A stretch of DNA of 64,000 nt from Pomacea canaliculata (Eukaryota > Mollusca > Gastropoda > Architaenioglossa > Ampullariidae): the NCBI RefSeq assembly GCF_003073045.1, contig NC_037597.1:8304717-8368716 (forward strand), in the 5' to 3' direction. This document shows, piece by piece, positions 11,586-42,795 of the stretch. The translations under genes and the position numbers were made by a program. Under the pieces are notes generated by a model. It had not been told where the DNA came from, ran no database searches, and worked only from the letters and a program-made list of their open reading frames with translations. Position 1 is the stretch's first letter. Every line of letters begins with the position of its first letter.

Positions 11586-14500
11586 TTAATAATCATCTTC
11601 ATAGCCCTCTTCATCATATGTCGTTTCTAAAAGAAAACAGAAAGATGGATGTATCATTTTCACTTTGCACTCAAAGCTTCCAGCAACTCAGTGGTAAAAA
11701 AGTCAGTCTAATGAAATTATCTAATAAAGTAATAAAACGAAACAGAAAAACTTCCTCACAAAGGTGTCTAGGCAGTTTTTCGATTAGCTCTGCTAACGAT
11801 AACTTTTTTTAATATTGTCAGATTCATGCTAGAACTTATTTCCTAGGCTTAAGGTATTTTTTTGGCCCTATGCTCCACTGGGGGCGAATAGGAATAAGAA
11901 GAAGAAGAAGGTATTTTTTGAAAGTGTTTTTGCCAAGGTATGCCTTAAGTGCGGTGGAAAGGAATTTTTAAATGTGGGTCCAAATACTTCAAACGATTGT
12001 TGTTACAACAATATTTAATCTTTATGTATATTTATATCCAAGCTACACACACATGAATTTCTATGTAACTGCTTTTCTGTTCAATATGAAGTTTCTAAAA
12101 ACTCTACATAGTTGATTATAGCAAAAATTATGTGCTTAAAATGATCTTAATGTTTTTCCGTTTTACACAAAATTAAGAAAGGATATAAAAAAAATTTTAA
12201 ATAGCATCATTAAACAGAACTACTTTGTAACTTATTTTATACAGATATGATTCCTCTCCCACCTTTATTCGAATTCCCCCATAAATGCATTTATTTGTAG
12301 GCATTTGAATTATATCCATAAATCACCTAGGAAAGGCAACTCAAGTACTTAGTAAATGTGACCATTATATGAACAAGTATTACCTGGGATAGCAAAGTAA
12401 TCTCGTGCACTGAGTTCAGCCTCCTCTTCCTCTTCATCCTCTTCAGCTAATTCCTCCTCTTCTGCAAATAAAGTAAGGTAAAGGCATGCAAGCAATCAAA
12501 AAGGAAACTCAAATATTAAAAGGCATCCAAACCAGGGCTATAATCAATAAATACTGTAAATAAGTTACAAATATGCAGTCTCAAATGATGTAAACTATGT
12601 TATTACTTCTACTGCTATCAACATATGAAAAGCAAATCACTAAATCTTTAAAAAAAAAAGACAAAAACAGGTGTTACATGTATTTCAAGGGCAAATTTAT
12701 ACCTCTAAGGCTCTTCAGCAGTGCTGATGTTAAATTAAAAAAAGATTTTTAAAAATGAATCTGTTTCATTCCTTTTTGTTCCACATAATCTTGATTAACT
12801 TGTTTACTAATGGCAGAAGCAAATGTTGTATCTTTGTAATGCATCTTGTCTATGGTATTCTGCTCAATATGTTGCCAATGTCTAATCTTGCTTCTTGAGG
12901 CAAGCTCCCCATTAACATGCAGACATGCACAAACACAGACACAGCACACCACATACACCTGCTCATACGCTTACACTTTCCCACTCAACCCATAAATTGC
13001 AAATATCATTAGATATTTGTTTGTGTGTTTATGAGACACAGAGTTGCATAAAAATGCAAAAATAGACAATCACTTTTATACTCCCTCCCAGCCCCTCTTT
13101 TCCATCCTACCTCTGCACTTTCTCACGTGCATGCATTTCAACAAAATGGGGTACTTTAAAGAGAATGGAGAGCTTAAAAAAAATCCATCATTGTAAAACA
13201 GTAAAGATTTATATAAAAATTTATATAAAGATTTATAGTAATGATATTAAAGTTCAGTAGAAGAAGGTTATTCACTCAGTGTTGGTGAATTAGTATTTTG
13301 TACCAATCTCAGGTCAGAAGAGAGAAGGAGGGGGCTCAAAAAAACTTCCTCTAAAGTGGAACAATCTTAACTCTACCTATACTGTTTACACTACCGAATG
13401 CATAGCTACAGCTCAATTGTGTCAATATGTCTGTATTGAACGAGTTAAGACTCAAACCTACCTGGCTCCTCATACTGAACTGGGCCACTTTCAACCACAA
13501 CTACTGAAGCCACATCATCACTTCCTTTTATCTTCTGCTTCTCCTCGATGGGTTCTTGAATTTTGATTTTCTTGTGCACTGACTACAACAAAAGCAACAG
13601 GATCAATAAAAGATATATCATCTAAAGATTTGCATCAGTAACTAAAAGCCACAAGACATACATAAATGGTTTTGTGTGCATCAATACTTCCAGCAAACTA
13701 ATACATATTGCGTCAAGGCAAATAATAGCCTACAGCCTAAGGGAAAGAAACATAATAAGCAATGGGTGGGGGTGGGGGGAACTGGTGTTTTACTCCGATC
13801 CAGCAACTAAAACTATATCATGGCAAAGGCTGTAAACAGATGCCACATGCAGAGAAAGAACAGCATGCCCAAGACGAGAGCTGAACCCAGGACAGCCAAC
13901 CTTTACTGCTTCGGTGACAGGCATTGTGCCACAGGACTGCCCTAACATAATAAGCAGACCTGACTCAAAAGGCAATGTTTGTGCTTTATGTCATGGCAGC
14001 AACTAGGGCTATATCACGGACTCAAAAGGCAATATTAAATTAGAATAAAATAATATTCTATCTTTAAAATTGTTTTAAAATTGTGCACCTGGAACAAAGA
14101 AATAAATCTTTGTACAAGCTACTAGCTAAATATAGTTCTTTCGTGGTCACACGTTCTCACCTCAACTTTAATATCTGTGAATAGGCTGGGACGTTTGAAT
14201 CTGAAAAAATTACAGTAGTTAATGAACTTAGCATGGTATTACATCCAATTTTTGTCATCTACAGTTTCATTACATGAGCGAGCCAATAGAGAGGCTAAAC
14301 CAAATTACAATTTGTACTATGCTTGATGCCTTTCATTTGGCCAACAGGACTTTATCTGCAATTAGCAAAGACGATAATAACACATTATACTAAATGGTAC
14401 TCAATCAATTTTTTTTTAATCAGTCAAACATACCTATTTAATGTTGGCTCCTTTTTCTGATTTTTTTCATTATCAGCAGGACTTCCACCTAAACCATGAA

Positions 14501-17500
14501 TTTTTTCTTTGTCTGTCTGTGCTGCCTGAATGTTGAGGTCATGCAGCACCTCATAATTAATTTTATTTGACAACTTTCTTTCCTGTATTATCATGGCTAG
14601 TGCCTCTCTGGCTGAAGAAGCCTCTGTCAGTTGATTCCTCTTTTTGTGCTTTCTTTTCTAAAGAAATAAAAATACAAAAGCCAGTATTGAAAAAAAAAAG
14701 ATAAAATACCAATATTTATATACAATTAAAAGATTATAAATCCCTTCAGCATAAAAAAATCCAAACAAATTGAGGCACTATAAAGAAGGATCTTTGCTTT
14801 TCAATAATTTTATGTGGACAAAATGATTTTCAACATACATTATTTTTTTTATTATCAACTAAGTGGTCTCCAAAATGATAATACATGTACACCATACTTT
14901 TTCAATAATGTAATCAAAACATTTATTAGCAGCATACCTTTTTTTCTAATTTTTGTCCTGCTTCTTCTTGTTCTTTCTGTTTTTTCTCTTCTTTTTCTGA
15001 CATAAAGAGAAACATATTTATAACAAAACTCTGCTGTACACATGAACGAAATGGCTACACAAACATTTTGTCATGATAATGTATGTATAAATAAACTAAA
15101 ACCTAAAGTACCTGCTTTACCAAGAGATACTTTTTTCAAACTGGAAGTTGAAAAGGCATAATGTTCAAAACCAAAGCTAATGAAGTTTTTTTTTAATTTT
15201 AGAAGTATTTCCTAAATGCTGATTTTTAAAGTATACACAACTTCTAAAAGGTTTTCAGACACGTCTAAAGGGTATGTGTATAAATATATATATAAAATGA
15301 ATCAAAATTTCTACTTATACATGACGAAGAACAGATAAAAATTATACCTGTACATATGAAGACACATGCAATCAGCTACACACATGCATACTCACACATA
15401 CCCTTTTCACTAAATCTATTCAAGGTATCAGAAACAACCTTTTTGTGCTTTCAAGTAGTCTTCATTTTCTCTCATCCATATCTTTGTCTTGACACGCACC
15501 TCTTCCTCGCTTAGTAAAAACTGCAAAGATGGTTATAGTTATGATAGACATCAAAGCCTTTCCTTAAACACTGCATCAAAGAAATTTTCAATAGATTCTG
15601 ATAGAGAGAATATAAATAAATTCTGTAAATTTCAGCGCCTGAAACACTGCAGTCTAATTTCAAAGCTTGCTATCTGCACCTACAGTCCTGCAAAATCTTG
15701 CTCCCGCACACGAATAACATGTGACATTACAGCTGCTGTCTCTGTAAGCATATAATGGAAGGAAGTTGATCCTTTGTCATCTCAACAATGAGAACATGTG
15801 AAAACTTATTCCATCACTCCCTTTTCCTAAGCACTCAACATAACATAACAATTTCCTTATCGGTGCTCGGAGCTTTTAATATTCAGTACTTTCTGGGCAA
15901 TTTGTATTAGCCATACTGTGGTCGGCTGTGATGCCACCAGTACTGATACCACACACGGCTTCAGGCCCAAATGGCAATTTGAACAGGCAAGGAAAATGTA
16001 TCTTTTAAATTTTTTTAGATTTGTGTTTCTTCTTGCAATCTTATGTTCAAGACATTAATAAGTGATATGAAAGGAATCTTTTGAACTGATATGTCACCAA
16101 TCGGGTAGGTCTTCAAGATATAACACACTTTTGCTTCTACAGAATTTTGAATACTAATGGAGTCTCTGCTGCATACACATATCTGCATAGCCTATAGTCT
16201 TAAGTCCAGCTATATCCAAATGAGAGATTACAAAGCTACATATAACCAAATTTATATAAAACAGAAATTACCATAACCTCAAAGACTATTACTGCCTACT
16301 ATCTACAACTGAATACATTTGTTTCATAATCAGGGCAGCAAGATATACCAAAAGTCTCCAATTCAGGCATAAATTAAAAAACTGTAAAGTTATCATTTAA
16401 TAAAGCATATAGCTATGCATGAAAGATTTAATACACAATTCAAATTAAAAGATAAATAAATTTTTGACCAATATCTTTTTATTAGTTTTCTGAAACTTTT
16501 GCCTGCACTATATACTATACAGTCTACACATTTGTTTTCACAAACAAACAAAAAAATAGATAAAATAAAAATTCACTGCTCACCTTATCAAGTTCACTGT
16601 CATCAATACCATCTAGATCAAGTTCACCTCCAACTACTGACTCTCCAGCTTTGGATGAAAAATATTTCCATGCATTGATTTCTTACATCAAATCAAATAC
16701 TGCTGTTAAACCCAAAACTGACCAACATTTATACTTTGCATTTAATTCTTCCAAAAAGCTCACTTGGAAAAGAATATGAAAAAGAATCACCCTTAATGCT
16801 AAAAAGTGTTGTGCATCACCACTTTTACTGAAATACTGAGCAGGTGATTTAAAGTTACCCTAGTCAAACATCAATTAGAAAAATAACTTATTCTGTTACA
16901 TCTGGTTATGAAATATGAAATTATGTGGATTCACAGCAAGAATCCAAGTGGTAAAGAAAGAAATTGGGGGAAAATCACAGCAAACCTTTGTTTTCTTTTG
17001 ATGTTATGCACTCCTCAACCATTTCTTTTATGCCAAGACTGGCTGCTGTTGGGGCAAGGTTTGAGACTCGCAGACTCCTGTTAAAATCCCCTCCATCAAG
17101 AGCACTTTCTGCTAGTTGGGAGATCTCAGGTTTGTTTTCACTGACTTCAATCAATGGCTGATTAGCCAGATCAATGCCGTCAACGAATCTCAATGTTTCT
17201 TCCTCGATAAATTTTGTGACCTCATCAATGTCATTATTAGGACTGTCATCTACCATTTCTGCAGAATGACAAACAATGATTCAATAGATTACATCTAAAT
17301 GAGAAAAGAAACAATAATTACTCCTTTACTGGGTTCTTTCTATCTAGATATTTAACCTGTTTATCTTCTGTAACTAGATATTAAAAACCAATGGCTGAGT
17401 TAAAAGTCAATAGTTCTAGAGGCAGACTAGTAAGACTTGCAAGAACAGCGACAAAAATTCAAGGTTGTTTTAATTCAAAGCCTCTCATTTTATTCATAAT

Positions 17501-20500
17501 TACAAAAGATATAAATGTAGCATTTGTTCTTGTTCAAAACAGAGAGAAAGAGAGTGAGATGATTCTGAAAGAAACACTGAATCACAAATCCTGATGAATG
17601 AATCATGCAACTTTTATGTACTGCTTACTTGCATATGCTGCAAAGATACCCCGTGGTTTTTTGGGCTCAAGTGATTTCTCAATCTCTTGTTGGAGGTTGC
17701 TAACTTCATTGGCTAGCTGATTTGTCAATTGAGGATTTTGTTCTTCAAGCTAAGACAATAAAAGTAAGATTAAACACTCTGAGCTTCAGATGGCTTAAAT
17801 GTGATGGCTAACTTTTTACACTTTCTTAAACATGTTAAAATTGGAAAATCACATCCACTCAGGTGAGCAAGTGACACTGAAATGTAAAAAATTAAAAAAT
17901 ATCACATGCATGAGAAATGCTACCTGTGCCAGTTTTGATCTCATTTTTCCCTCTGTGAAACATGGTGGATCCTGCTCTTCTTCGAGGTCAATGTTGTGAA
18001 ACTCTTCAATAGTCAGCTGAGATGATGGAGTATCATGAAACTCCATAAGCCTACAACACAAAGCAAGACAAAAGCATGCACATGTATATCTAAATGATTC
18101 ACAGGTGTTGCAATAAATGCACTCATTAAAAATCTCATTAAGTGGGATTTAACTTTCATTAGAATTATAACAGTTATGCAATAAGAAGCATATCCTAATA
18201 CTATACTGACACAAGCAAGGACAATAAATGAACAGAAACCTCATGTGCCACTTTCTCTCTCACACAAAATTGCATAATTATACCTCCCTTGAAAACACAA
18301 AAATAAAAGGATCTATTGTATTTATCACCCTGTTCCCATTTTTTTTAAATTACAGAATGTGAACAGAATAGTTCCATATTCACTATTCTCAGATAAACTG
18401 CAATGTCTAGAAAAGTTTTAAACTCTATCCTCTTTTAGCGTAAAATCTTGTAACTCAGAAATTTGTCTTTTTAAATTCAAATGCTTTAATAAGAAAATTG
18501 AAATGACAAATAATTGAGTAGTAAATGTGAACAGAAATTTTTTTAAGTACCTTTTACGGATAGTAGCTTCACAAACTTTGACCACTTTTATTATTTCCTT
18601 GACAGATCTGGCAAAGTCATGCATTCGTGCAGCCACCAAGAGAGCTGCACACATACACACAAAAGTTTACCATCACTCTTGATAAATAATAATTCTAGCA
18701 AATATGAAGTGCTGTTTATGATTCTGAGTGAGCAAGCATGAAAGAGATTGTATCCAAACATAATGATAATGAATATACAAGACCATGCCTCATACTTTGC
18801 TGTATTATAATTTAAACTATTATTTTTAAATGGCGCTATTTACCATGTTGTTTTCGATGTACTATAAAAATAACAGATGTCTTTAAGTATCTATGCCATT
18901 TTATGCATCAAAGTAGCTTTTACAAAGCCACACATGATCAATCACCAGAATATTATATTCATCTCAAATTTTTTTCTGAAAAACAAGAAACAGTTCAAAC
19001 CTGCACCACATAAACCTGAGGGCCTGCGCCCTGTATGCATCCAGTCACGCTTCATTCTGGCCACCAAGCGCAGAGCTGTCATAGAGACTTCATGGGTCTT
19101 TTCTCCAAACTGAAGCTTGTGAGCGAATCTAGGCACATACAGGCATGGATCTGGGAAAATATTCGAAACAAAATTTGTGAAATTTTGCATGTATTATTTT
19201 GAATGCCAGCTTGAGTGAAACATTCTTTCAGTGATGATCTTAAGCCTCATCCTTTTACCTATTATTCTATTATGTAATTATTTTAATAATAATCATAATA
19301 GTATTTGTATAGCACATTTCCCCACATAGAAGCAATCTCGATGCGCTTCACAAGAGACCAGGAGCAGTGGCGAAAGACGCCGTGTGATGTAGGTGTCACA
19401 ATCGAGTACAAGCAAGCACGTAAACAACAAACATACATGAACATGCACCGGTTTGCAATACAAGAACATGAAGGAACGCAGAGATAGGTGTGGGGGAGAA
19501 AGAGATATGTTTTAAATTCAGATCAGAAAGTATGTACTAACTCTGCTATGCAGAAAGACGGAGGCAGGCCATTCAAAATACTGGGGCCAGAGGAGAAAGA
19601 GCGACAGATGAACATCTATAGTCTGATATGTGGAATAGGGGGGGGGGAAGGGTAAGATACCAGAAGCTGAGTATCGTCAGCGTACATGTGATACTGCAAG
19701 CCAAAGTGGTGGATCACAGGGCCTGAGGCACTCCATGAAACACCCCAGCAGGTTCTGATGCAGAGCAGTGGATATACTGGGTGCAGACAGGTAGGAGTAG
19801 AACCAACAGGACGGTACCAGAGAGGTAGCTTGAAGCTGACAGAGGAGAATATGGTGGTCTGAAGCGTCAGGCAGATCGAGCCTAGACAGGACTGATATTT
19901 GACCGCAGTTGTAAGTTGACACATTGGACAAGAGCAGTCTCAATGGAGTGGTAGGCTGACGGAAATAGTTCCAGGAAACTTATACACTAAAAGAAACAAT
20001 TAAAACTTAGTTCCATTGTTCTTCTTGCATGTCCGTTTGTTTTTTTTTTGTTGTTGGTAATATAGGGGAAATGTTCTTTTTCAAAACAAGCAAATCCAAC
20101 ATGACAGCAGTTACGCTACACAGTTGTCGTCTGCAGTGTAAGGGAGATAAGCCATCCCTGCCTAAAGAGTAGCAACTCTTACTCGTTCGCAAGAGGGCGC
20201 ACCTGCTACAAAACTTTGGTAAACAAAAAACCTATTATCACAAGTGCTCGTTTTCGTACGATATGTGGTGACTTTCAAGTGGTACCACGTAAGCACTCAT
20301 TTCAAACGTTACTTTGCATTTAGAGACAATAAAGCCGAACACTAAGTTGTATCATTCATATGATGCTGATGCTTAAATTGAAGGCAATCTCCCTCGGCGT
20401 ATACATTATTGTACAGTCCTATCTGCATCCATGATCAGTTATTCCTATTAAGTAGTCTTTGCACTATAAATATATATATCGATGTATTTCCATATCAGTT

Positions 20501-23500
20501 ACTTTTGTTGTGTATACGTTTTCATTTATTTAACAAGTTATTTGCTAATAGCTATTTTGAAAACTAGTGTAACGGACACACACACACCCCCCATTTTGTC
20601 AACTAGGTCACTTAACGTTACATTTTCGAAATCAACAGAAATATGGATAGTGACTTATAAGTTTACTTCTAGTTTTGTTACAGATCCAATATCGTTCGCG
20701 TAATTTTCACTCGAATGGTGTTGATTTAAAGTTTTACTTTTGAACATTTAATTGCAATATTTTTCTATGCGTAATTCGTGCCATAGTGGAGTTCAAGGGT
20801 TACAAGGTCCAACAACTTTTTTCCCCGTCTTAGCAGCTGGGTATCCAATTTATCAGGAATATAACGAGCAGAGAATCTGAGGATTAGGCTTTGCCTTTCA
20901 CAAGCTTCTTTCTAAACATGAGCCGCTTACATCTCGCTGGCAATATTGCACAGTAGATTTCTGATTTTGATAATCTTATAAACAAAGCAGAACGTGACGA
21001 GGTGTGTGCGCGAGCACATTTCGCCGGCCGGCAAGCTTTATTTCCCACCCGATAATGCCAGTGTAAATTCAATTTGCACATCTATGACAATTTAAAAACA
21101 ATTACTACATATCAATTTAAAACAATTATATGGGAATCCTTAAAATTTTTAAAACATTTCCTTCCGCATAAAATTTTTTTATGTTAATAAGTCACTTAAA
21201 TGATATAGCTATAATTTCTTTAATGAAACTTGTTCCAGAGCTGCAGATTCAATAATGATTGCCGCCATAGCCAAGTCTTCCTTCCCTGCCCGTCTAAAGG
21301 ATGATGATGATATTAACCAAGAGGTGCCACAAAATTATGTGGTTCCTGTCAATTCGTTCTCTACATCATTTCCATCAATTAGCAGGCACCATCCTCATGA
21401 AACTGGTGAACCAAATTACTGCGATTCCTCTGTTTGCCCATCTCAGTCGATGTCAGACACTGCAGAGAGACAGAATTCCGAAAACTCTACCTTAGTTTCA
21501 AATCCTACAGCAGTGGATGAACATAACTGGCAAGGTGGCCAGACATCCCTGAGGGAAAGAAATGCTGTCATGTTTAATAATACTCTCATGTCAGATGTCA
21601 CTTTCATAGTGGGGACCACAAGCAGCCCTAGGAGCATCCCAGCACACAAGTATGTTCTGGCTACAGGAAGCTCTGTCTTCTTCGCCATGTTTTATGGAGG
21701 ACTGGCAGAAGATGTTAGAGAAGTTACTATTCCTGATGTGGAGCCTGTAGCATTCCTGAACCTCCTTAGGTATGTCTTTGGCTCATGACATTTTAAGTAT
21801 CATTATTTCAATACTGAATGGGTTGTAGTGATATGCTTAAGCATTCTTGCTTCCTTTATATATCATTTGAATCACTGAAACAAAACTTTTATCAGAGACT
21901 AGAGATTGAGAAATTAAGAATTATGTGTTAGCAGGAATGAGTATGGTTATAGCGTGTAAAATGCCTGGCTCTGTTCTTTTATTAAGAATTTTTAGGACGA
22001 AATCCTCATAGGCATGGTTTACTTTCTGCTTATCAAAACCATTTCTGTTTTTTAGGAGTGAAAAAAATTGAAATATATAAAAATCTAACACTGCCTCCTT
22101 TAGATATTTATGATTGCACCCACTATATTTTTTTTTAAATTCTTTTGAAAAATATTGCAGATACTTGTATACAGATGAAATTCAAGTGGAAGCTGATAAT
22201 GTTCTTGCCACATTGTATGCAGCCAAGAAATACATGGTGTCACATCTGGCCCAAGCTTGTGTTCATTTTCTGGAGACCAGTCTTAGTGCCCGTAATGCTT
22301 GCATCTTGCTCAGCCAAGGTAGGCTCTTTGAAGAGCAGCGTCTGATGCAGCGTTGTTGGGAGGTCATTGATGCTCAGGCTGAAGAAGCACTGCATTCAGA
22401 AGGGTTTGCTGAGGTTGACCATAAGACTCTAGAATCCATCCTGAGCAGAGAGACTCTAAATGCCCAAGAAGCATCCATATTTACTGCTGTGATGAAGTGG
22501 TCTGAAGCAGAGTGCTGTCGCCAGGGCCTGCAAATGACAGCAGAAAACAAACGCCATGTACTGGGGCCTTGTCTACACCTTGTTCGCATGCCTGCTATGA
22601 TGCTGGAAGAATTTGCAAATGGTCCAGCACAGTCTGGGATCCTTACTCTCCAGGAGACCACTGACATCTTTTTGCACTTCACAGCACAGATCAAACCAGA
22701 GCTAAGTTTTGACTGCAGGCAGCGGAAAGGCCTGGCACAGTATCGTGTCCACCGATTTCAATCTTCTGCCTACCGAAGCAACCAGTGGCGTTACAGAGGC
22801 CGCTGTGATAGCATCCAGTTTGCAGTGGACAAACGCATTTTCATTGCAGGGTTTGGGTTGTATGGATCCAGCAATGGGTCTGCAGAGTACCACATAAAAA
22901 TAGAGCTGAAAAAAAATGGGTTTGTCCAGGGGCAGAAAATCACCAAGTTCAAGTCTGATGGATCCAGCAACACCTTTCCTGTGTTGTTTGACATACCTGT
23001 GCAGATTGATCCAGATGTCTTTTACACTGCAAGTGCCATTCTTGAAGGTTCAGAACTCAGTTACTTTGGCCAAGAAGGTTTAGCTGAGGTTCAGTGTGGC
23101 AAAGTTACCTTTCAGTTCCAGTGTTCTTCTGATAGTACAAATGGCACTGGCGTTCAAGGTGGGCAAATTCCTGAACTTCTGTTTTTTTGCTGAATATGAA
23201 GTGCAAAACATACTGTATTTATTCTGTAAACTTGATACAGAAAATTTAAATTAAAAATTTCTGTTAATGGCATTTTACAACTGAAGCAATCTTGAATCCC
23301 AAGTGGCCTGTAGATCTGTATCCTCTCTTCTAGTCATATTTGTGTTATGATTGATATGTTATGACTGATTAATAAGTTTAAGATTAGCTTGAGATTTGTT
23401 CATTTGGCTTAGCAGTTCATAGAATCAACTATCAAAATAATCATGCATGTTGACAACACATAATTTAAAATCTAGTCACCAATACTCCCTTTATCTGTCT

Positions 23501-26500
23501 TTTTGATTGTTTTATTAAATTGAAAATTGGGAAAATAAAAATAACTTGTGGCTATTTTTTTTTATCATTGACCACAGAATGTCATTAAAATGTGTTTAAA
23601 CAAGAGTGAGTTGGGATGGTGAAGGTATGGAGATGAACGTGGATATGTCATAAAGAAATGCATAAATAAGAAAATGATGTAAGCAACATAGATGTCTAAT
23701 GAACAAAATAAACCTTGGACTGAGACTGTGCAATACACAGGCACATCTGTGCAGACACCAGATTCTATCATTACAATGCAAGACATCAGAATGACAAAAA
23801 GAACTATGCTAAATTAAAGAGGAGCATTTTAACTCCAAACTGGGAAGAACAAAACACAATGACACATCTGGAAAATGCTTGGATCTGAACATAATATACC
23901 ACATAAATTTCACTTCATTCTACATATTAATGTAGAAAAATTAGTACATTTCTTACTGGCAATTTATTTTTGAAGGTGAGGGGAATGGGCCTGGAAAGAA
24001 AATAGTGTTAACCAAGTATGCATACCGGTATAAACACAAAAATGTGCTCCAGAACTTGCATGAACAATGTCTTTAAGGTGGCTTTATAGTAACGATTTCC
24101 TACACATCCTGAAAAACTAAGTGTGTTTTGATACACACGGACAATTTCTCTCTTTCTCCTATACACAAAATGCAGGTATAAATAAAATGCACAATCTAGA
24201 CAAACACCAACACCAGGCTTGAGAGTGATGTCCTTCCACCTAACTGGCTGGAGGGGACCAGCTCTCTGTTGTTTTGTCTCGTCTGTGGATCTACATCAAG
24301 TTTTGGTTTCTCCTACTCATCTGTGATGCTTGTTGCACCATTCACCTCTGTTATGGATTTTTCTTCTGTGCTTGTGTTGTGTCATTACTTACAATAGACA
24401 TCTTCCACTGACGCCTTCTGTCTTCTCATTTTCTTCCATCTTGCTTTGGAGTTTTGACTGCACTGTGCCTTCTTTACTGACGACACTTCTAGTTGTTCTG
24501 GCATTGTGGACCATGCCATTTTCCATTTATTATTTACAAACCACGTAGGTTGCTGCATGTTGTGTAGATTAGATTCTGGATTTATGCGCTTCACCAATGT
24601 CGTCTGGTTGTGAGATGTGTTTGTGTCATCCTGCATCTTGTTCCCTGCATGACACTTCGTTTGTTCAGAGCCAGGACTGTGCTCTGCTCTCAACTGTGTT
24701 GCCATTTTCATAGTGATCTGCCGGAGCTAGAATTCATACATATCTTGCAGGGTGCACTGCATGCTCTGAAATGCTTCCATAGCAAAGGTATCCTACATAG
24801 GAGTGTGAAGGCTAGTCATGATTTAATACCAGATAGACAACAAGTATGTCTCACTAGCCTCCGCAATCTCTTTCTCTCCACAGTTGTAGGAGGCCGGCGC
24901 TTGTGAACAGTCTGACTACCCCAACTTGCTGACGGTTGCCTCCAGTATTTTAGTCCAGAAATTCTTGAATAGAATCTGGCTATTTCTCCGTAATAGTAAA
25001 ACTAAACTGATGATCTTACTGCTAGAATAAGGCTATTTTTCAGTGATTGTTTTTGAGAACAGCATTAATTATTATTACGTTTGTGTGCTTTTCTTTTCAG
25101 TAAAGCGTTTTGAGCCTACCTTTAATGGTAGGGGAAAGCGCTATATAAACAAACATATTATTATTAGGCCATCTATACACTTTTGTGTTATATCTGGTGA
25201 TAAGCTTTTAGAAACGCTTAAAAAAAATTCTTTTTGCTGACTAACTGAAAAGCTAAAAGTATTTCAAAGAGAAAATCCACAATTTAGATCACATCTCAAA
25301 TGTGAGACCCCTTAATTCTCAGCACAAACATTTTTAACAGTGGTCACCCTTATATGCATTGAAAAATCTATTTCAGTCTTAAAATGGTGCTGATAAAGTG
25401 TTTTCCTTGCAAAATGTTTGAAGCTTACTTACCTATGGCAGGAATATTCAAGCAGAGTTCCTTAGAGATGTGTAAAAATGTCTTCCCAAGCATATAAACA
25501 TTCACCTGAAATGTTTAAAAAGAATTTTTATCACGTTTTAAAATTAAAGCTTTATGATCATCCTTTTAACTAACATATACATTTTGATATTGAGATTTAC
25601 TCTTTTACTAGGATCAAAAAAGACAATTTTAGTAATAAACACTAAGTTAGCTATTTTTGCAAAAGTTTGCTATGGTATAACCTTTAGATCAAGAATTTTT
25701 TGCATTGCTCCTTGAGAGTAATTCATAGGGTAAATCTGGGGTTGTTTTTTTTTTAATTACTCGTTAGACCAATAAAACTGCTAGTGGCTGACAGACAATC
25801 GTAGGATTTTATCATCATTTGTCATTTAGTTATAGATACTCATTGAGAGAAAACTTCAAGAAGAAGAAGAGAAAGGATATATACAAACCTGTAGCACATC
25901 ACTGAAGTCCAGAAGCATATGTTGAACCCTCAGTTAAGGATAAGACAAAAGATTTGAAAAGGTTGTAGGTAGCAGGGCATCACACCCATCGAGAATGTGA
26001 CTTCAAAAGCCTTCCTCAATTTCGGACATACAACAATGCATGCTGTCTAGAAGCTTTATTTATATCAGATTCTGCAATAAATGGTTTTGTTCTATGCATT
26101 TGACCACAACAGAATGTGCTTTGTAAAATAAAGGCAAGCTGATGGATAGTTGTCATGCTCTCTGGCTTGAACCAGAACATCTAAACAAAAGGATATGAGG
26201 TGTTCCTTCTGTTCTGCAAACAAGATAAAGACATGTAGCAATTACATGTGTTATCTTCCGACCACGAGTTAGCCGTTTGGTCACTGCCATTTTGTAGAAG
26301 TTAAATGCAGTATCCATGCAGTGTTGGTTTAGTCGAAGCTGTGCTCCAATTTCTTGAATCTTTCGCTTTCCTAACAACAGAGAAAAGACTCCAACTGATG
26401 AATGACAACAACTTTTTATACCTAGAAAGCAAAAAATAATGTATGGGATGACATGTTTTGCAGCAAGCATTTTGATTAAAAATATTCTGATAAAGCTATT

Positions 26501-27648
26501 TTATAGGATGCTTCGAATGCTTTTAGAAACTAAATTCGTCTGTTTGAGCTTTCACTGAAATTTCAAAAAATGAAAATAATCGCAGTTTTATTTTGGTTTC
26601 CAAGATTTATTTTAAAGATTTTTCTTTGAATTTCCTCCCACATGAGATTTCAACTAATTGTACACCTGTAGATATTTTTTAGATGGATTTACCATTCTGC
26701 AGTGTGACTGCTCTGGACTCTCTTCCGATTCCATGAGAGAAAGTTCCTCCAAATGAATGAGACTTTGTTCCTGAAATGAAAATATTCCTCTTTGCATCTT
26801 AAAAAGCCATCTTTATTGTCTTATAAAAATGAGTCACACAACATTTATCTACAATTTAGGGATCGGTAAAGTGACTGAACACACAACACACACGTTATGC
26901 AAAGCCAGTTGCATGACAACCCAGCTGTTTACAAAAAAGTGCGATAAGAAATGCCCATATTAATGTTACTATAGTTGTCATTTCCTCATATAAAAAAATG
27001 AACATCAACACTTTAAAACAGCAAAGGCAATCTTGTCAAAAGAGAAACATGATATCTCATGAAGCTCAGCCCAGGACTATTAAAAGGGTTAAAGTTAAAG
27101 AACTTGGTATCAAAACAACTTTTTGTTCCTAATCACCCCAGTGGATCAAAACAACTGCTTCATATTTATTGTAATGATATTAAAACCTGTTAAAAGAAAC
27201 TGCCCGTCCAGAGTCAAATCAAATTATTGAAGTTTATAGGTGGTATTTTAACCATTAAATATCCTTTTTATTGTAAGGTTAAATTGAATGCTTCCCAAAA
27301 CATTTAACAAATGATGAAAGAATTATATGAATTATGCACCCCATTCTCTGAATACAACACTGACATCAAGAATTACCCAGGAGGACCACTCCAGCAACTT
27401 CACAAACTGACAAATCTTAAATCTCCATCTTGCTTACAACTATGATATTTAAAAAGAAACTTACCATCATTGGAAACAAACTGTCCAATGACAGAAGCAC
27501 CACCAGCTGCATTCTCCTGAAACTGTACTTCTGAGACAATAATCTGATCCTCTAAAACTGACCCACAGCTCGTACAGACTGCATCCCCTCTGCTTGGATC
27601 AATGTCAATTTCATTGCAGCCACAATGCTGACATACTTTTTCTGACAT
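11586..27648 (-). CDS. BRF1: BRF1, TFIIIB 90-kDa subunit (18 coding exons, 671 aa)
   Basis: TFIIB-related subunit of TFIIIB; in the nucleus it bridges TFIIIC, TBP and RNA polymerase III at tRNA and 5S genes. Exons: 27648-27465, 26770-26693, 26370-26197, 25920-25889, 25505-25433, 19150-19001, 18644-18551, 18050-17924, 17749-17629, 17258-16986, 16648-16584, 15520-15439, 14996-14938, 14657-14434, 14200-14161, 13582-13462, 12461-12384, 11626-11586. All junctions keep phase. Residues 6-28 form the zinc ribbon (C6, C9, C25, C28). The two cyclin folds span about 88-262, including LTRGRK and [11 protein letters not shown]. The TBP-binding homology block is about 436-550, with [10 protein letters not shown] and KINYEVL. 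The tail (633-671) is acidic and ends YEDDY. Length matches human (about 677, from memory). Intron 3 is AT-AC; intron 5 (6.3 kb) contains BTBD6. A 5' UTR intron ends just upstream of the ATG. Confidence 0.97.
13778..13945 (-). repeat. tRNA-derived SINE, family A, copy 1 (BRF1 intron)
   Basis: On the minus strand this matches the plus-strand copy at 48047-48225 over about 170 bases. Shared blocks include GTGCCTGTCACC in diverged form, GGGTTCAG (B-box-like) and GGCATGCTGTTCTTTCTCTG. A fragment of the same 3' tail recurs at about 13984-14025. The A-box/B-box-like head suggests a tRNA-derived SINE. The longest frame across it is chance. Confidence 0.75.
19285..19945 (-). mobile_element. Degenerate L2/CR1-like LINE fragment (reverse transcriptase + 3' tail)
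   Basis: Minus-strand translation between about 19945 and 19640 gives pieces of a non-LTR reverse transcriptase. They include a remnant of the DHxILLxxLQAT block, a W-SYLS block and the catalytic YADDTQLL box after GLQYHM, spread over two frames. About 300 bases downstream, at 19375-19285, lies a typical 3' tail (AAGCGCATCGAGAT, then GTGCTATACAAATAC and ATT-like repeats). YADDTQL suits the L2/CR1 group. The element is 5' truncated and appears internally deleted between the RT box and the tail. It lies in BRF1 intron 5. Confidence 0.8.
21255..23193 (+). CDS. BTBD6: BTB-BACK-PHR protein, BTBD6/BTBD3 family (2 coding exons, 515 aa)
   Basis: Probable substrate adaptor for cullin-3 ubiquitin ligases; vertebrate BTBD6 acts in neurogenesis and Drosophila Lute is a relative (family knowledge). 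Exons 21255-21769 and 22161-23193 join in phase through an Arg codon. The BTB domain is about residues 105-212 ([25 protein letters not shown]), followed by BACK ([27 protein letters not shown]) to about 335. The PHR domain is about 361-515 ([31 protein letters not shown]). The first 90 residues are low-complexity. A splice acceptor ends at 21238, so at least one 5' UTR exon lies upstream. A poly(A) signal is at 23534. The whole gene lies antisense in BRF1 intron 5. BTBD3 and BTBD6 probably have a single pro-orthologue in invertebrates, so the symbol is approximate. Confidence 0.95.
23534..23539 (+). promoter_or_regulatory. Poly(A) signal, probable end of BTBD6
   Basis: AATAAA about 340 bases after the BTBD6 stop codon; this would give a short 3' UTR. 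No transcript evidence is available. Confidence 0.45.
24676..24985 (+). pseudogene. Broken STRAD (STE20-related adaptor pseudokinase) copy
   Basis: Translation gives [14 protein letters not shown], then [14 protein letters not shown] and, further on, FSPEILE. This is the middle of the STRAD pseudokinase domain. HRSVKASH is the STRAD-specific replacement of the HRD catalytic motif. In-frame stops follow GGRRL (TGA at 24904) and occur again beyond it, and nothing upstream or downstream continues the kinase domain. No intron interrupts it, so a retrocopy is likely, though a fragment of a duplicated exon is possible. STRAD normally activates LKB1 with MO25; this copy cannot encode a working protein. 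It lies inside BRF1 intron 5, downstream of BTBD6. Confidence 0.8.
25085..25170 (+). repeat. 3' tail of a LINE/SINE (AGCG...CGCTATATAAA then TTATTATTA)
   Basis: The segment AAGCGTTTTGAGCC, a small hairpin-like part, GCGCTATATAAAC and an ATT repeat match the widely conserved tail shared by L2/CR1-type LINEs and their dependent SINEs. It resembles, in the opposite orientation, the tail at 19285-19375. The body upstream is not recognisable. Confidence 0.65.
25921..26196 (-). other. BRF1: U12-type AT-AC intron (BRF1 intron 3)
   Basis: On the minus strand exon 3 stops at 26197, and the intron begins ATATCCTTTT, the minor-spliceosome 5' splice site consensus. It ends TTCAAC at 25921. A TCCTTAAC branch-site match lies at 25940-25933, about 13 bases from the acceptor. 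Joining the exons here gives T-P-H-M-L-L-D, exactly the family sequence. No GT or GC donor nearby restores the frame. Confidence 0.93.
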
Positions 27649-28807
27649 GATTACTGTCAGCTATATGGACTAATCATGCCAGCTGAGCTGTAGTTGTGAT
27701 CTGCCTATTTATAAAAAAACAAATCTAAAAATTAAAGTAGTCAAATAAATGTAAATGCATTACATGTTTGCATAACACTTCTTTTTAATTTAATGCTTTG
27801 GAAAATAAGATGCAAACTGAAATGTAATACCTGTAATCTTATTAATCATTCATAACACATTGTAGTCTTAGTACTTACGCACAGTTTAATAGTAACATAA
27901 TGGCACACAAGATGGAAAGTTTTAAAACCTTAAGTTCTGAAGACATTCGAATGAGGTATGGGATGAAGTGGTTACATTTCTTGGCCTTACTACTTTTGGA
28001 GTTCAACATCTCACCCACACTTTTATACCTTATTAGCATAAGGTTTAAAAATAATTTTAATTGGTGTAATTTATCGTCGGGCTTTGAAAATCTTCTAAAA
28101 AAATATTCTTCTTTACCAAAGAGAAATACATTAAGAATAAACACTCATACCTAAAACACACACACACTGGCACACAACAACACGCAACAGCCTGAAAAAG
28201 TCGCATGCTCGCTGGGTTGAACTGGAACTGTGCTCCTGTGCACTGCTTACATCTTATATAGTGCGTTTCTTTTGATTAGTTCTTCTTCCAATAAACTGCT
28301 TCCTCGTCAATTTCTATCTTTCTTATAAAATAGGATTTAACCACCCTTACCGAAATCATATCGATGCCAGCACTAGTCATGAGTGTATGACCACTAGCTA
28401 ACCCACGAAGTATTTTATAATTTCAGTTGTGTTTCTATTCTAAAATGATTCAGTATGTCCAAAATTACTATTTTAAAATCCCACCTATTAAAAACTGTTA
28501 TCAAACCTTATTTGGCCAGCTTCTTTTCCAACATATTCTGAAAGAATATTATCCTAAAATCCAGATTACACCATATGTACATCAACTACAAAACCTTGAA
28601 TAGTTTGATTCGAATATGGTTCATTATGAGAAACATTTTCACGCAGGCGCATTAAGTGCAGGGTCAGATCTTCCGGTCGTCGGAATGTTTAGTTTGTCCA
28701 ATACAGGTAGGGGATTAGGGTAAATTTACTGACTCATATGTTTCAAAAATAGTCTTCGTCATCAGGAGGACGGTCCAAGCGCAGGGCAGTTGCTGTATCT
28801 CTCACTG
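27649..28807. promoter_or_regulatory. Divergent promoter region between BRF1 (-) and kelch-like gene (+)
   Basis: Upstream of the BRF1 ATG the minus strand shows a 3' splice site (AAATAGGCAG at about 27712) and good donors near 27880 and 28151, so BRF1 has untranslated 5' exon(s). On plus, CACTG then GTAAGT at 28807/28808 is a strong donor. It could pair with the acceptor ending at 31336, just before the kelch-like start. The two transcripts would then begin within about 1 kb of each other. An ETS-like CTTCCGG is at about 28670. Confidence 0.45.
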
Positions 28808-29295
28808 GTAAGTAATATTTTATGGACAAAAAGCCTAATTATCGGTGTTTTAATGGGACCGTTCATACGTCTCAACATCGCTACAGTGACTGCAGTACCT
28901 TTTATCTGCGTGCGATTCTTTTTATCCAGTTTGTGATTATTTCGCAGTTCTTTTATTTGTAAATTCAGAAATCATTGTAAATGTATTCTTTTTAACATGT
29001 TGTAGTTGTTTGGTTCTAAAGTATTAATCGCAGTGCTAGTTTTTGTGTTCATGTTGTTCGCCAGCCGAGACAAGGACCCGTCGGATGGACACCGGATTTG
29101 AAATGTACCCAACACTGCATTTGTTAATATTTCATCCTTTTAACACATTTCCAGTTGCTGCAGTACGTATACTGATACTTAATGATTCAAGCTGTTAGTA
29201 TAAGTTGAATTTTAAATTTCGTATTTTTCCTATCTGTATCACTTTTTTTTAAATGGAAAGTAACCAGAAGTAACATCAGTTTTGCACCATCAGGG

Positions 29296-31387: not shown

Positions 31388-33672
31388 ATGGCAGAGGGGC
31401 AGGAGAACAGCTGTGTCAATGGAGACCTGTTCCGGATGGATGAACGCCCAGAGCATGGCATGAAAATTCTACAGGGCTTAAACAAACTCAAGACAGACCA
31501 TGTGCTCTGTGATGTGACCCTGATAGCCGAAGGTGTGTTTGTTTGCTAATTGCCTTTCTCTGACATGAATTCTGTCCAGTTCTTTTGAAACTCCATTTGA
31601 GATACTTGGTTAATATTACAACATGTAAATAATGATGCACTGACTAAAAAATTGTTTCTTGGTCAATTGTATTACAAACAATGCCATTTAAATTTGGCAG
31701 GATATGTTACAATTCATTATCATTAATGAGTAAAAGATGACAATTTGTAGATTAAGTATACTAATGGTAGTACTGGATCACATGCTTTAATTGTAAATCT
31801 GTTACACAGTCAGGATGTGCAGTGTGTAATCAATACACAATATATAATTGAATAGATTTTGTAAACAATAGGAAATATAATTATCACTCCTATCCTTAGC
31901 TTTGGTGAATATTTGTCATTAAACCACCTGTGCATTCAACTCATGCTTTATCTTATACAGTCTAGCCCATAAAAAATTGCAGATGTCTTTTATTTACTGC
32001 ACTCTTTTTTAAATTTTACACAGGAAACTGCTTTGCCTCTCATCGTGTGATCCTTGCCTCCTGCTCAGACTACTTTCGCTCCATGTTCACCAGTGGCATG
32101 CGCGAAAGCAACCAAAAGGAGATTGAACTGAAGGGCATAACTGCCAAGGGCCTGGAGAAGACGCTAGAGGTTATCTATACATCCACCACCACCTTGGAAG
32201 GAGACGATATCTTTGATGTCATCGCTGCTGCAACACATCTTCAGGTCACACCTGTGATTGAATTTTGTGAGCGCAACTTCCTGAGTGGGATGACAACATC
32301 AAACTTCTATGACTTCATCAACACAGCAAAGCTGTACAGCATGAACAACGCCCTGAAGCAGATAGACGTGTTCATTGCAAAGAACCTTATGCAAATTGCA
32401 AAGGAAGGTACCCTGCACTTGCTGACCTACGATCAGATGTGGAACTGTCTGAATAGTGAGAAGCTGTGCCTGAGGGAGATTGACATTTTTCACATCACTT
32501 GGGAGTGGCTGCGGCAGGACCCCAACATGACAGACCATGCGCCAGCTCTCATGCGCCTCATTCGCTTCCCACTCATCAGCCCAGCTGATCTCGTGCATCA
32601 TGTCCAGAGAGTGGACATGATGATGTCCAATCCTGAGCTTCGGCAGATGGTTCTTGCTGCACTGAACTACCATGTAGTTCCCCATTCTCAGCCCCTTGTT
32701 TCTACCCCCAACACCCGTCTCCGCTCATACGTGACTCGTCTTGTCAGTGTGGGTGGGAGAGAGATACACCCATACCCTTGCCTCCATGACGAGATTCTGG
32801 TCTTTGATGCCAAGATCACCTCCAACAGTCTGCTAAACAGACAGGAAATAGCAGCTCTGCCATCTGCCCTCAGCCACATGCAAGTGTTGGTGTTCAACAA
32901 TTTCCTTTATGTTCTGGGTGGCTGCACTACTCAGTGCGCCCATGGAGAGTCAGCTGTCAACTCAGTCTTGCGCTATGACCCACGCTTTGATAGTTGGTTC
33001 CAGGTGTGCCCCATGCTGAACAAGAGAGCTTATTTCTTTGCTGGGGCTCTTAGTCAGAAGATCTATGCTGTGGGTGGAAAATTCAAGGATGGAAGCTTGG
33101 CAACAGCAGAATGCTATGATCCTGCTACTAACTCATGGGAGCTGATTGCATCGATGCCCATGAGCTACCATGCCCACGCTGGAGCTGTGTATGGAAACTT
33201 CATCTACATCTCAGGGGGTTACAGTGGCAATCACTTCACACCCGACATGCAGCGGTACGATCCAGTAACCAATCAATGGGAGGATATGGCTGCTATGCTA
33301 ACACCAAGGGGCTGGCATGTGATGTGTGCCACGCATGATAAACTCTTTGTGTTTGGAGGCTGCAACCTCAACGTGAATCAGCAGGCACAGCCAGAGATGC
33401 AGTCAGAATGCTACGACCCTGCCACAGACCAGTGGACCATCATCGCGCCACTGTCGGTCTCACACAAAGAAGCCTCGTGCGTGGTGTATAATGACAACAT
33501 CTATGTCCTTGGTGGCTACAATGTGCAGACCAAAACTGGCCAGAAGCTTGTCTCAAAGTATGACATTTACACTGGAATCTGGGAAACAGTTGGTGCACTG
33601 CCGCGTAGTCTGACTGGGGTTGGCTACTGCACTTTTAAGCTTCCTTGCTACAACCCAGATGAGAAAGATTGA
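31388..33672 (+). CDS. Kelch-like (BTB-BACK-Kelch) protein, KLHL9/13/14/26/36-like group (597 aa)
   Basis: Probable substrate receptor of a cullin-3 ubiquitin ligase. Exons 31388-31532 and 32024-33672 join in phase through a Gly codon. The BTB domain is about residues 25-140 (LCDVTLIAEG, SCSDYFRSMFTSGMRE). BACK is about 145-255 (SEKLCLREIDIF, IRFPLISPADL). Six kelch repeats follow (VLGG, AVGG, ISGG, VFGG, VLGG with YDP and W). The start is taken at the ATG in AAGATGG (31388). An in-frame ATG at 31352 would add 12 residues, and a short upstream ORF starts at 31343. I cannot settle which KLHL paralogue this is. The poly(A) signal at 35074 suggests a 1.4-kb 3' UTR. Confidence 0.93.
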
Positions 33673-39000: not shown

Positions 39001-42000
39001 AGAGCTTTCAGTTGTTAATAATGAAAATATGCAAAGAAGAATAGACAGATATATGTGTTTAACCTCAAACAATGAAGTCTAAATTATATCTGCTTCTACA
39101 TTACTTCTTATGGCACGAAAGCACAGTACTAGAAGGACTAGCATTTAACGACATTATACACCTTTTTTCAAAATTTTGTGACAAATCATACGTCTTTCTT
39201 TCAACCCATAGCTACCAAACCAATTTTTTTAAGACATAAAAGTCAGTGTTTTATACCTGAAACAGGAATTAAAGGCTTGCGATCTATTAATTCCCAGAGC
39301 CTATAGCTTGCTCCAAGCCCTCGATTCAACTCAGTGTAGAAAGAACTCAGACCTACACAGATGTAAATTCATGAAAAATAATTTTTAAGCAGGACAGCCT
39401 CTCATTGAAATTCTTAAACTAGAAAAATAAAAAAAGTAAACGCAGTTGTATGGTCAAAGAAATGTGAGGTTTACAGCCTTCGCTTATCTGAGGGCCCATT
39501 TCTTCTCCCTTATTGCCTTACCCTACCCAACTCTCTAGGAGTCAGGGACTCAATCTAAAGCTCAGTGAGCATCATTTTAGAAGACTAGGGTATCTGCTTC
39601 CCCAAGAAAATTAAACTGCCTGGTAAGAAGTATCATACATCAAATATTTGTGAAAGTATCACAAATTATTTATTCCTAAAAGTATGGTGTGTTTACAAAA
39701 CAGTAATCAAAATTGTCTGTGCATCAATAAAATGGAACAGAAACAATACCAAATTACAATGGATAGTATTTTCTTTAGGACACCTATTAATGTTATGTTT
39801 AATTAAAATAAATAAATGTAAAACCTCCAATTGAGATTCCAACATAAGCTGCATACAAAAGAAAAGCAGAGAGTTCTCCCACTGTTATCTGAGATTCTGT
39901 CATCATCATGCCTCCATAATAAAACACGGACAACACAATCAGATTGCCTGTCAACCCTGTCTGAAAAATACAGCACCAGGCCCAGAATTAAAACTCAAAT
40001 ATGCATTTAATTAAGCGTTTGATATTAGATATAATTTTATAGTATCCTTGTATACACAATACAGACCATAAGCAAAATGTTCTCACACTTGTGCAACCAT
40101 TGACATTTTAAACCTTGCCTGCATCTACTACACCAGGTGCTTGGTGAAATTAATGCTGTAGCAAAAATTCTATAAGTATTTCATTTAGACTCCTTTCTAA
40201 ATAAAATGAAAAACAGTGAATTAACCATTATATTTCTTGCTGCAATTTAACCTATTATTAGAGACATAATTTCTTTTATTTAATGACTGAGAAAATTGTC
40301 AAAGAACTTTACAAAGCCAAAGAAGATTCCTCGTGCCAATGACTCTTTATAGGAAAGCTTCAGAACATCTTGGATTTTCTGCTCATAGGTTTTACACTCC
40401 TTGTCTTCATGGGCAAAGGCTCTGACTGTACGAATGTTACTAAGCTTCTCTTCTGCCAGCTGGGATAAACAGTTGTTACTCAAATTTTTTTTAAAATTCA
40501 AAACATGTAATAAGTGACATGTCTATGTGTAAGAAGTATATTAATCTATGCAGCACAGGGCAATAAGCAATGCTAATACACAGAAAATATGTTGGCACAT
40601 TTCATTCAAACATTTTCTATTGTAATCCCTAAAAATGTGCAAAACTAGGAAAACTCCCCAAAAAATAAACATCCAGTTTTCCCTCAGTAAATAATCTTGC
40701 TTTACATGTTACATTATTGTTCACAAGAACAAGATCTTAAAGTTTCCTTTATGAAGTACTAACAAAATACTGCTCATTTTAAGAGTTGTATAAAATGCAA
40801 TGCATCAAATTCAAAAAAGAAAAAAATAATAAGTAAAATGGTTACCTCAGTAGCACTGGCAAGCGAGTCTTGAACCCGTCGTGTAATACCTCGCATGTAA
40901 CGCCCATAAATAATGGACATGGCTGCTACAGGTGGGACTACGGCAAGTGAGAAAAGAGCTAATTTTGTTGATACATACACCTTAAAAAAAAAAAAGTCAC
41001 TTTTAGTGGTCTTGACAAATCTCAAAATTAGTGGAATGTCAGAATCCTTTCAATAAACCTAGGTTACTGTTGCTATTGCCACCATCATCAGTATTGTAGA
41101 CAGTGTTACAAATGTTATTTAAAAAATATCAATAAGTAGAACAAAACAGACAATACCATTATTTGATGAAACAAATTAGACTTGCTGAGGCCTGTAGCAG
41201 AGAGCCATTCAACCCATATCATGAGAGATACAAATGGTCGAGTTATAGAAATTATGTGATATCATCTGTTTTGTCCAGCTGATACCCTAACCTAAACCTA
41301 TCCCTAACCCTGTCATTCATTATATATTACATTATTTGTATACCTTGACTGACTAGTATCTTCTGTCAGGCATCAATGCCCACATCCACCTTAGTTAAAT
41401 GACAAATCCCATTTGTTCCCATCATACAGCCAGTACACTTATATTCCCCATCCAATATACACATTAAATAATCTTCATTGTTTCAGACCTTCCATACATT
41501 CATAGAACTTTTAAAAAACACTTTGAGTCAGACTCTCTCCCTCAGATATTCATTTCCATAAACGCAAATACTAAAGTTTATATATACATACACTTATCCA
41601 CATGCGCACACATATACTAACGAAGATTACAGTAATAAAGCTTTAGTTATCATCTCATGCTGACATCAGGCTAAACTTACCATCATCCCTACTCCACCTA
41701 TTGCCTGTGCAAAAGCCCGCAAACCATCAGAAATGTTCATTGTTACAGAGTTGCCAACAAGACTTGTATCTGTTGACAAGCGATTTATGAGTTCTCCAGT
41801 CCTTGTTTTATCAAAAAAGCCAATCTCTTGCTTAATCAGAGAGCCAAACAGCTTCTCTCTCAATCTCTTGATGATGCGCTGGCCTGCAATCTGCATCAAG
41901 TAAATGCGACCAAAGTTAGCAGCACCTCCAATTATAAAAACACAGACCAGAATCTGACAGATGTTGTTAAGGCGACTAATAAACTGTTCATCCTGTGATG

Positions 42001-42795
42001 TGGTGTATATGACATCTATGACTTTCCCCATACAAAATGGCACAGACATTGTCACACCACTTGAAATCAACAGCAATCCCACAGCACCTGAAACCAGATG
42101 AGATTTTATTTAAATGTAAATTATCAAATGCAAAATTGCAACCACTGATACTTTTTTTTTGCCCATTCATCATCAGTTTCATCCCTTAAAAATTACCCTT
42201 TTCAAAACTCGGGCATAACATCTTCAATGCCACAATATTCTGTGATGACATTAAAGAAGAATAGTTTACATCAGACCACCAATTTCATTTGTATAAAAAC
42301 TCCACTCTTCTTCCATCGTTAGCATGATCTATTTATCATCATTTAACATAGGCACCAACTAGTACCTAATATTCTCCATTTCTCTGGGGCTGACAGATTA
42401 AGCAACCTCTTCACTTCTGAAGTCTTTGGAAGGGTGGATTGCTTGCTTTCCACTTTCACTGTTGGCTTTTTAACTCCCGGGTTCCTGGCTTCTGAGCTTT
42501 TGTATCGGCATTGAAAAGCGTTTGTACGGAAATTGGTTTTTGTTGCACTACACGAAATATTGCAATGAATATATTGTCTCCAAAAATGGTGGACGGAGTT
42601 CCCTCTATGCAGGCAATACTGCGCTGTGGTCTGCTTTTGCCATTTGTACAATTTGAAACATTCTGTTAAACTATTATGATGCCTAACGTGGGATTGACCT
42701 ATCAAGGGTCGAGTGTATGTGTTCAAAGACAGCACTCTAATCGAATTGTTGCACTTGAACACATACATTCTGTCGCACAATAGTTTCCAAGCCAT
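36048..42795 (-). CDS. ABCB10: ABCB10, mitochondrial ABC half-transporter (12 coding exons, 715 aa)
   Basis: Mitochondrial inner-membrane ABC half-transporter, linked in vertebrates to haem synthesis, biliverdin export and oxidative stress. Exons: 42795-42366, 42087-41681, 40980-40846, 40459-40313, 39960-39825, 39352-39257, 38444-38220, 37927-37848, 37688-37508, 36845-36802, 36574-36540, 36279-36048; all phases agree. Residues 1 to about 120 are basic with few acids, as expected of a mitochondrial presequence. The transmembrane domain spans about 143-400 ([30 protein letters not shown]). NBD: Walker [10 protein letters not shown] 504-512, Q-loop VSQEP, signature LSGGQ 611-615, Walker B ILLLDE 631-636, H-loop His 667. 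The match to human ABCB10 (about 738 aa, from memory) is closer than to ABCB7, ABCB8 or ABCB6. The start is 627 bp from the divergent death-domain gene. Confidence 0.97.
38565..38740 (-). repeat. tRNA-derived SINE, family B, copy 1 (ABCB10 intron)
   Basis: On the minus strand the head reads AGTTGAGTGGTTAGAGTGCTGG (A-box-like) and, about 40 bases on, TGGTTCAATTCC, a near-perfect B box, so it derives from a tRNA. The tail (CTGACTCCTGAGAGGGTTGG, GGTAAGGCA) recurs at about 39480-39600. It is not a tRNA gene: there is no intact cloverleaf 3' half. Confidence 0.75.
39480..39600 (-). repeat. SINE family B, copy 2, tail only (ABCB10 intron)
   Basis: On the minus strand it shares CCCTGACTCCTAGAGAGTTG and GGTAAGGCAATAAGGGAGAA-like tail sequence with the copy at 38565-38740, but lacks the tRNA-like head. 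It is 5' truncated or diverged. Confidence 0.65.

Follow-up and report, generated by a model that had tools for sequence, protein, structure and literature searches.

In a 64,000-nucleotide stretch of the Pomacea canaliculata genome (NCBI RefSeq assembly GCF_003073045.1, contig NC_037597.1, positions 8,304,717 to 8,368,716; here called the window), a gene of the BTBD3/BTBD6 family (BTBD3/6) is nested whole and antisense in intron 5 of BRF1, the gene for the 90-kDa subunit of TFIIIB. We consider it likely that both are ordinary protein genes and that their unusual arrangement probably goes back very far. The two were probably paired before the snail and human lineages diverged, since the human counterparts also appear to be nested and since the two genes are linked in all 14 species in which both could be compared. 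As such, the pair is a new example of a known phenomenon, nested genes; among the open-access papers listed by capped searches, judged by title and start of the abstract, we found none on the conservation of the BRF1/BTBD6 pair.

BTBD3/6 lies whole within the longest intron of snail BRF1

The original prediction placed a complete BTBD6-type gene on the forward strand inside a BRF1 intron on the reverse strand, between 19151 and 25432. Splice sites and gene models agree with this to the base: the interval is exactly BRF1 intron 5 (Table 1), with the donor AG/gtaagtaa after exon 5 and the acceptor ttttcccag/ before exon 6. The intron interrupts codon D181 between its first and second bases, at NIPAI/DPCLY, a stretch that is gap-free in an alignment of 18 BRF1 proteins and whose D, P, and C are invariant. 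Among the 17 introns of BRF1 it is the longest (6,282 bp, median 383 bp), and it makes up 45% of the intronic DNA of the gene. The inner coding region lies entirely in this one intron and on the opposite strand, and both reading frames are intact.

A database protein from the same species (P0121, TFIIIB 90 kDa subunit-like) matches the 671-residue BRF1 model with 100% identity and full coverage, so that the exon chain does not depend on our own splice reading alone. The model carries PF08271 (Zn_Ribbon_TF), PF00382 (TFIIB, in two stretches), and PF07741 (BRF1), each above its Pfam cut-off. With the predicted zinc ribbon, two TFIIB repeats, and BRF1-type TBP-binding domain all present, the host gene is, by its domain content, the BRF1 orthologue. 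As a separate observation, BRF1 intron 3 (26196..25921, reverse strand) resembles a U12-type AT-AC intron, with strong signals, namely, ATATCCTTTT at its start and TCCTTAACT ahead of the AC end, when compared with what we take to be the consensus for this class.

The inner gene model is complete, with two coding exons, a GT-AG intron, and a protein of 515 amino acids in which PF00651 (BTB), PF07707 (BACK), and PF08005 (PHR) all exceed their Pfam cut-offs. In PDB, the BTB domain of BTBD6 (2vkp, E value of 1.4e-43) matches best. The N terminus is akin to P0001 and P0002, unnamed proteins in the database that are encoded on short contigs, and shows a looser likeness to proteins of Haliotis and Patella. 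Given that the gene has an intron, an origin as a plain retrocopy is disfavored.

The inner gene is a probable counterpart of both BTBD3 and BTBD6

The named database matches of the inner gene, among the matches listed, were BTBD6, BTBD6-B, BTBD3, or BTBD3_6. In a tree with 30 rows, vertebrate BTBD3 and BTBD6 formed one clade (100/100) with the invertebrate rows outside, and a second tree with 23 rows recovered the vertebrate clade again (100/99), with the snail gene excluded; the latter fell into a mollusc clade in both (97/95 and 100/98, respectively). Because the snail gene stands outside the vertebrate BTBD3 plus BTBD6 clade, it is best read as the co-orthologue of the two, i.e., as a counterpart of both. 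The label “BTBD6-type” should be widened accordingly, as a strict assignment to BTBD6 does not hold.

The genome searched for copies comprises 440,159,624 bases in 24 contigs, and searches of it with PF07741 for BRF1 and with coding exon b for BTBD3/6 revealed no close second copy of either gene. PF07741 had two matches in this 440-Mb genome, both of them BRF1 exons within the window. Coding exon b of BTBD3/6 had seven, which were itself and six weaker ones; the best of the weaker matches, on C13, shares 47% identity over 219 of 343 residues. The C13 gene has a 554-amino-acid frame in which BTB and BACK were matched and PHR was not, and we infer it to be BTBD1/2-like. It was included in the 23-row tree, where it forms a long branch; this gene was the only outgroup, and the trees contained no named BTBD1/2 row. 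In comparisons of coding exon b with viral contigs (2 stretches matched) and genome contigs (17 matched), none of the matches was a relative.

Linkage of BTBD3/6 and BRF1 spans the protostome-deuterostome split

Linkage was measured by the length of the longest contig encoding each protein, with equal lengths taken to mean the same contig. We used the best 120 of 1349, 2029, and 2100 hits from one BTBD3/6 search and two BRF1 searches, the query of the second BRF1 search having been chosen in advance to rank invertebrates over vertebrates. The rows are 90%-identity clusters, of which the first name was used, and those lacking a species name or contig size were excluded. Named species numbered 81 for BTBD3/6 and 126 for BRF1, with 14 common to both and the window species not among these.

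The original prediction had held that BTBD6 unlinked to BRF1 in most other animals would speak against it; at the contig level this is contradicted, as the two proteins were encoded on contigs of identical length in 14/14 common species (Lineus, Tubulanus, Owenia, Argopecten, Ruditapes, Ptychodera, Branchiostoma, Lepisosteus, Pristis, Tachysurus, Anomaloglossus, Petaurus, Myotis, and Apodemus). By the phyla to which we take them to belong, these include amphioxus, a hemichordate, nemerteans, an annelid, bivalves, and vertebrates, and they represent protostomes as well as deuterostomes. Across 10,692 comparisons between different species, contig sizes never agreed. The contig that carries both genes in Ruditapes measures only 298,643 bp. 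Among the 14 BTBD rows, those of Ruditapes and Ptychodera carry the name BTBD3-like. Branchiostoma, whose record is a hybrid, has two BRF1 rows, and one of them matches. The vertebrate BTBD3 species all fall outside the BRF1 list, so that BTBD3 provides no negative control for linkage. Seen as shared contigs in protostomes and deuterostomes alike, the linkage of BTBD3/6 and BRF1 is shown, at the contig level, to be ancestral to bilaterians.

The human locus and the age of the nesting

For human, the original prediction had BTBD6 on the strand opposite BRF1 and within its span on 14q32.33. The opposite orientation is presumed; the location within the span finds support in hg19 coordinates from published work. 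A BRF1 intron lies at chr14:105695251-105707600 (PMC4079513), which implies BRF1 exons on either side of it; a region at 105715658-105715970 is assigned to BRF1 and BTBD6 (PMC13115854); and a region at 105751631-105751638 is assigned to BRF1 (PMC11896887), in a table of a kind that may name the nearest gene. Taken together, these three positions indicate that human BTBD6 appears to lie inside the BRF1 span, between stretches assigned to BRF1. In a cattle gene list, BTBD6 adjoins BRF1 (PMC11108207); a mouse gene list apparently has Brf1 beside Btbd6 on chromosome 12 (PMC5774710), in an ambiguous table layout, and was not counted. The excerpts of PMC6460568, PMC9461104, and PMC8386283 contain no human BRF1 exon data.

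With these data, the age of the nesting can be weighed. It could be recent and local to this snail lineage, given that the direct reading of DNA comes from the snail only and that a scan for repeats of at least 20 nucleotides, a length that would overlook short target-site duplications, found one weak pair around the inner gene (27 nucleotides, 70% alike, 19209-19235 and 25021-25047). The linkage in 14/14 species, the hg19 coordinates that put human BTBD6 within the BRF1 span, and the intron of the inner gene all speak against such a recent event, which we regard as highly improbable. Alternatively, the linkage might be ancestral and the nesting not, such that former neighbors became nested separately in the snail and human lineages. 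The other invertebrates show linkage only, and for a gene to become nested is a fairly frequent event (PMC8467205, section 3.1), yet this course of events demands two independent nestings of the same gene into the same host, and both Ruditapes genes are found within 298,643 bp; we therefore consider it unlikely.

Several observations weigh against the nesting being ancient and held in place without selection. Location on one contig does not amount to location in the same intron; the nesting itself was read directly from DNA only for the snail and, for human, taken from published coordinates. Arthropods, cnidarians, and sponges are absent from the common species. Protostomes and deuterostomes are not separated in the trees, where arthropods fall near chordates and, in the 23-row tree, Owenia is basal, so that the trees hold little information on the deeper order. 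Lastly, the linked human expression signals described below fit co-regulation as well as they fit lock-in.

Persistence of the nested pair

We propose that BTBD3/6 would already have been situated within BRF1 in the bilaterian ancestor, that it would be transcribed on its own from a CpG-rich stretch at ~20 to 21.25 kb, and that lock-in, not selected co-regulation, may be the default cause of its persistence. The nesting would last because an exit needs an excision that spares both a factor of RNA polymerase III (Pol III) and a conserved BTB-PHR protein. Lock-in as the default is suggested by the 56 nestings versus 4 unnestings counted since the human-mouse split (PMC8467205, section 3.1). According to the same study, most nested genes originate from young duplicates that were placed in introns (PMC8467205, section 3.1).

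Ahead of the BTBD3/6 ATG, a 1.25-kb stretch has a CpG observed/expected ratio of 0.96, which ranks second among 51 equal tiles of the window; elsewhere in the BRF1 span the ratio is 0.28. At the other end of the inner gene, all seven candidate polyadenylation motifs fall short of BRF1 exon 5, and as the last one is more than 1.2 kb away from it, an overlap of the two mature RNAs is not required.

It is nevertheless conceivable that regulatory coupling holds the pair together, with shared enhancers or a link at the promoter level and selection against separation. In human pancreas, the rs2975216-C allele accompanies raised expression of both BTBD6 and BRF1 (PMC8435735); in CD4 cells, altered expression of BTBD6 as well as BRF1 is paired with the CpG cg02201215 (PMC4351585); and a single differentially methylated region is attributed to the two genes (PMC13115854). 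Such common signals, however, are expected of any two overlapping genes, and in a pancreatic tumor data set BRF1 is down and BTBD6 is up (PMC13205582). Moreover, snail BTBD3/6 and BRF1 each have their own CpG-rich stretch, and coupling of this kind seems to us rather doubtful. A functional form of it, which we hold to be quite unlikely, would have BTBD3/6 occupying one and the same BRF1 intron from a time before bilaterians radiated, with the intronic CpG-rich promoter also firing toward exon 6 and yielding a short BRF1 that starts at M204 and would be devoid of the zinc ribbon and the first cyclin fold. In human, an annotated BRF1 isoform has its start at the corresponding methionine, M205. 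If true, the promoter of the inner gene would tune Pol III output via a truncated factor in animals generally.

Other features of the window

Within intron 5, the STRAD-like pseudokinase fragment is likely a pseudogene, judging from its frame and its match in PDB. Also in this intron, positions 19616-19979 (reverse strand) resemble a worn reverse-transcriptase piece with YADDTQL, which we take to be a motif of that enzyme; Pfam at an E value of 0.1 gave no match there. Upstream of BRF1 and divergent from it lies a BTB-BACK-Kelch (KLHL-type) gene (31966-33672, forward strand), which brings two BTB-BACK genes within ~13 kb. Farther along are an ABC transporter membrane-domain exon (41666-42109, reverse strand), with the window's top-CpG-ratio 1.25-kb tile beginning just upstream at 42501, and an ARMT1-like (damage-control phosphatase) exon (50603-51496, reverse strand). 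The 64-kb window held no structured RNAs at gathering score and no tRNAs. A bacterial promoter scan of the window was uninformative for an animal gene.

Table 1. Coordinates of BRF1, the nested BTBD3/6 gene, and associated features in the window
Feature	Coordinates	Strand	Basis and remarks
BRF1 (TFIIIB 90 kDa subunit), host gene	11586..27648	-	Spliced model; 671 amino acids in 18 coding exons, the first beginning at 27648 and the last ending at 11586
BRF1 exon 6, flanks host intron	19001..19150	-	Spliced model; first Met is M204
BRF1 intron 5 (host intron)	19151..25432	-	Spliced model; 6282 bp, GT-AG, phase 1 in codon of D181
CpG-rich promoter-like stretch in host intron, 5' of BTBD3/6	20001..21250	+	CpG observed/expected 0.96; putative promoter function
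BTBD3/6 coding exon a	21255..21769	+	Gene model; N terminus and most of BTB domain, ATG at 21255
BTBD3/6 coding exon b	22161..23193	+	Gene model and domain matches; end of BTB, BACK, PHR, stop
Seven candidate polyadenylation motifs 3' of BTBD3/6 stop	23250..24186	+	Motif matches only; 23250, 23514, 23534, 23584, 23707, 23813, 24181
STRAD-like pseudokinase fragment in BRF1 intron 5	24568..24906	+	PDB STRAD alpha 2wtk/3gni, E value 3e-11, frame residues 41-109; open frame ends at 24906
BRF1 exon 5, flanks host intron	25433..25505	-	Spliced model
CpG-rich promoter-like stretch by BRF1 5' end	28251..29250	.	CpG observed/expected 0.93; putative promoter function

Relation to known nested genes and implications

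Known systems offer several points of comparison. The Drosophila gene 2mit in timeless2 is likewise a protein gene in opposite orientation within a host intron, with different genes involved (PMC3786989). The vertebrate LRRTM/alpha-catenin pairs are likewise protein genes nested in another and followed over long times; they are a different gene pair and concern vertebrates, whereas the linkage of BRF1 and BTBD3/6 also covers lophotrochozoans, a hemichordate, and amphioxus (PMC3933685 for LRRTM/alpha-catenin). The human BRF1/BTBD6 locus at 14q32.33, by its hg19 coordinates, resembles the snail in having BTBD6 between BRF1-assigned stretches and differs from it in that vertebrates additionally have BTBD3.

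A pair that has probably been nested since the bilaterian ancestor provides a clean case in which mechanical lock-in can be set against selection. Vertebrates may supply the contrast, as BTBD6 was kept with BRF1 and its sister BTBD3 apart, on what we take to be a chromosome other than that of BTBD6 and BRF1. After the vertebrate genome duplications, BTBD6 would have stayed with BRF1, and BTBD3 would have persisted at another site, perhaps one from which the copy of the host had disappeared.

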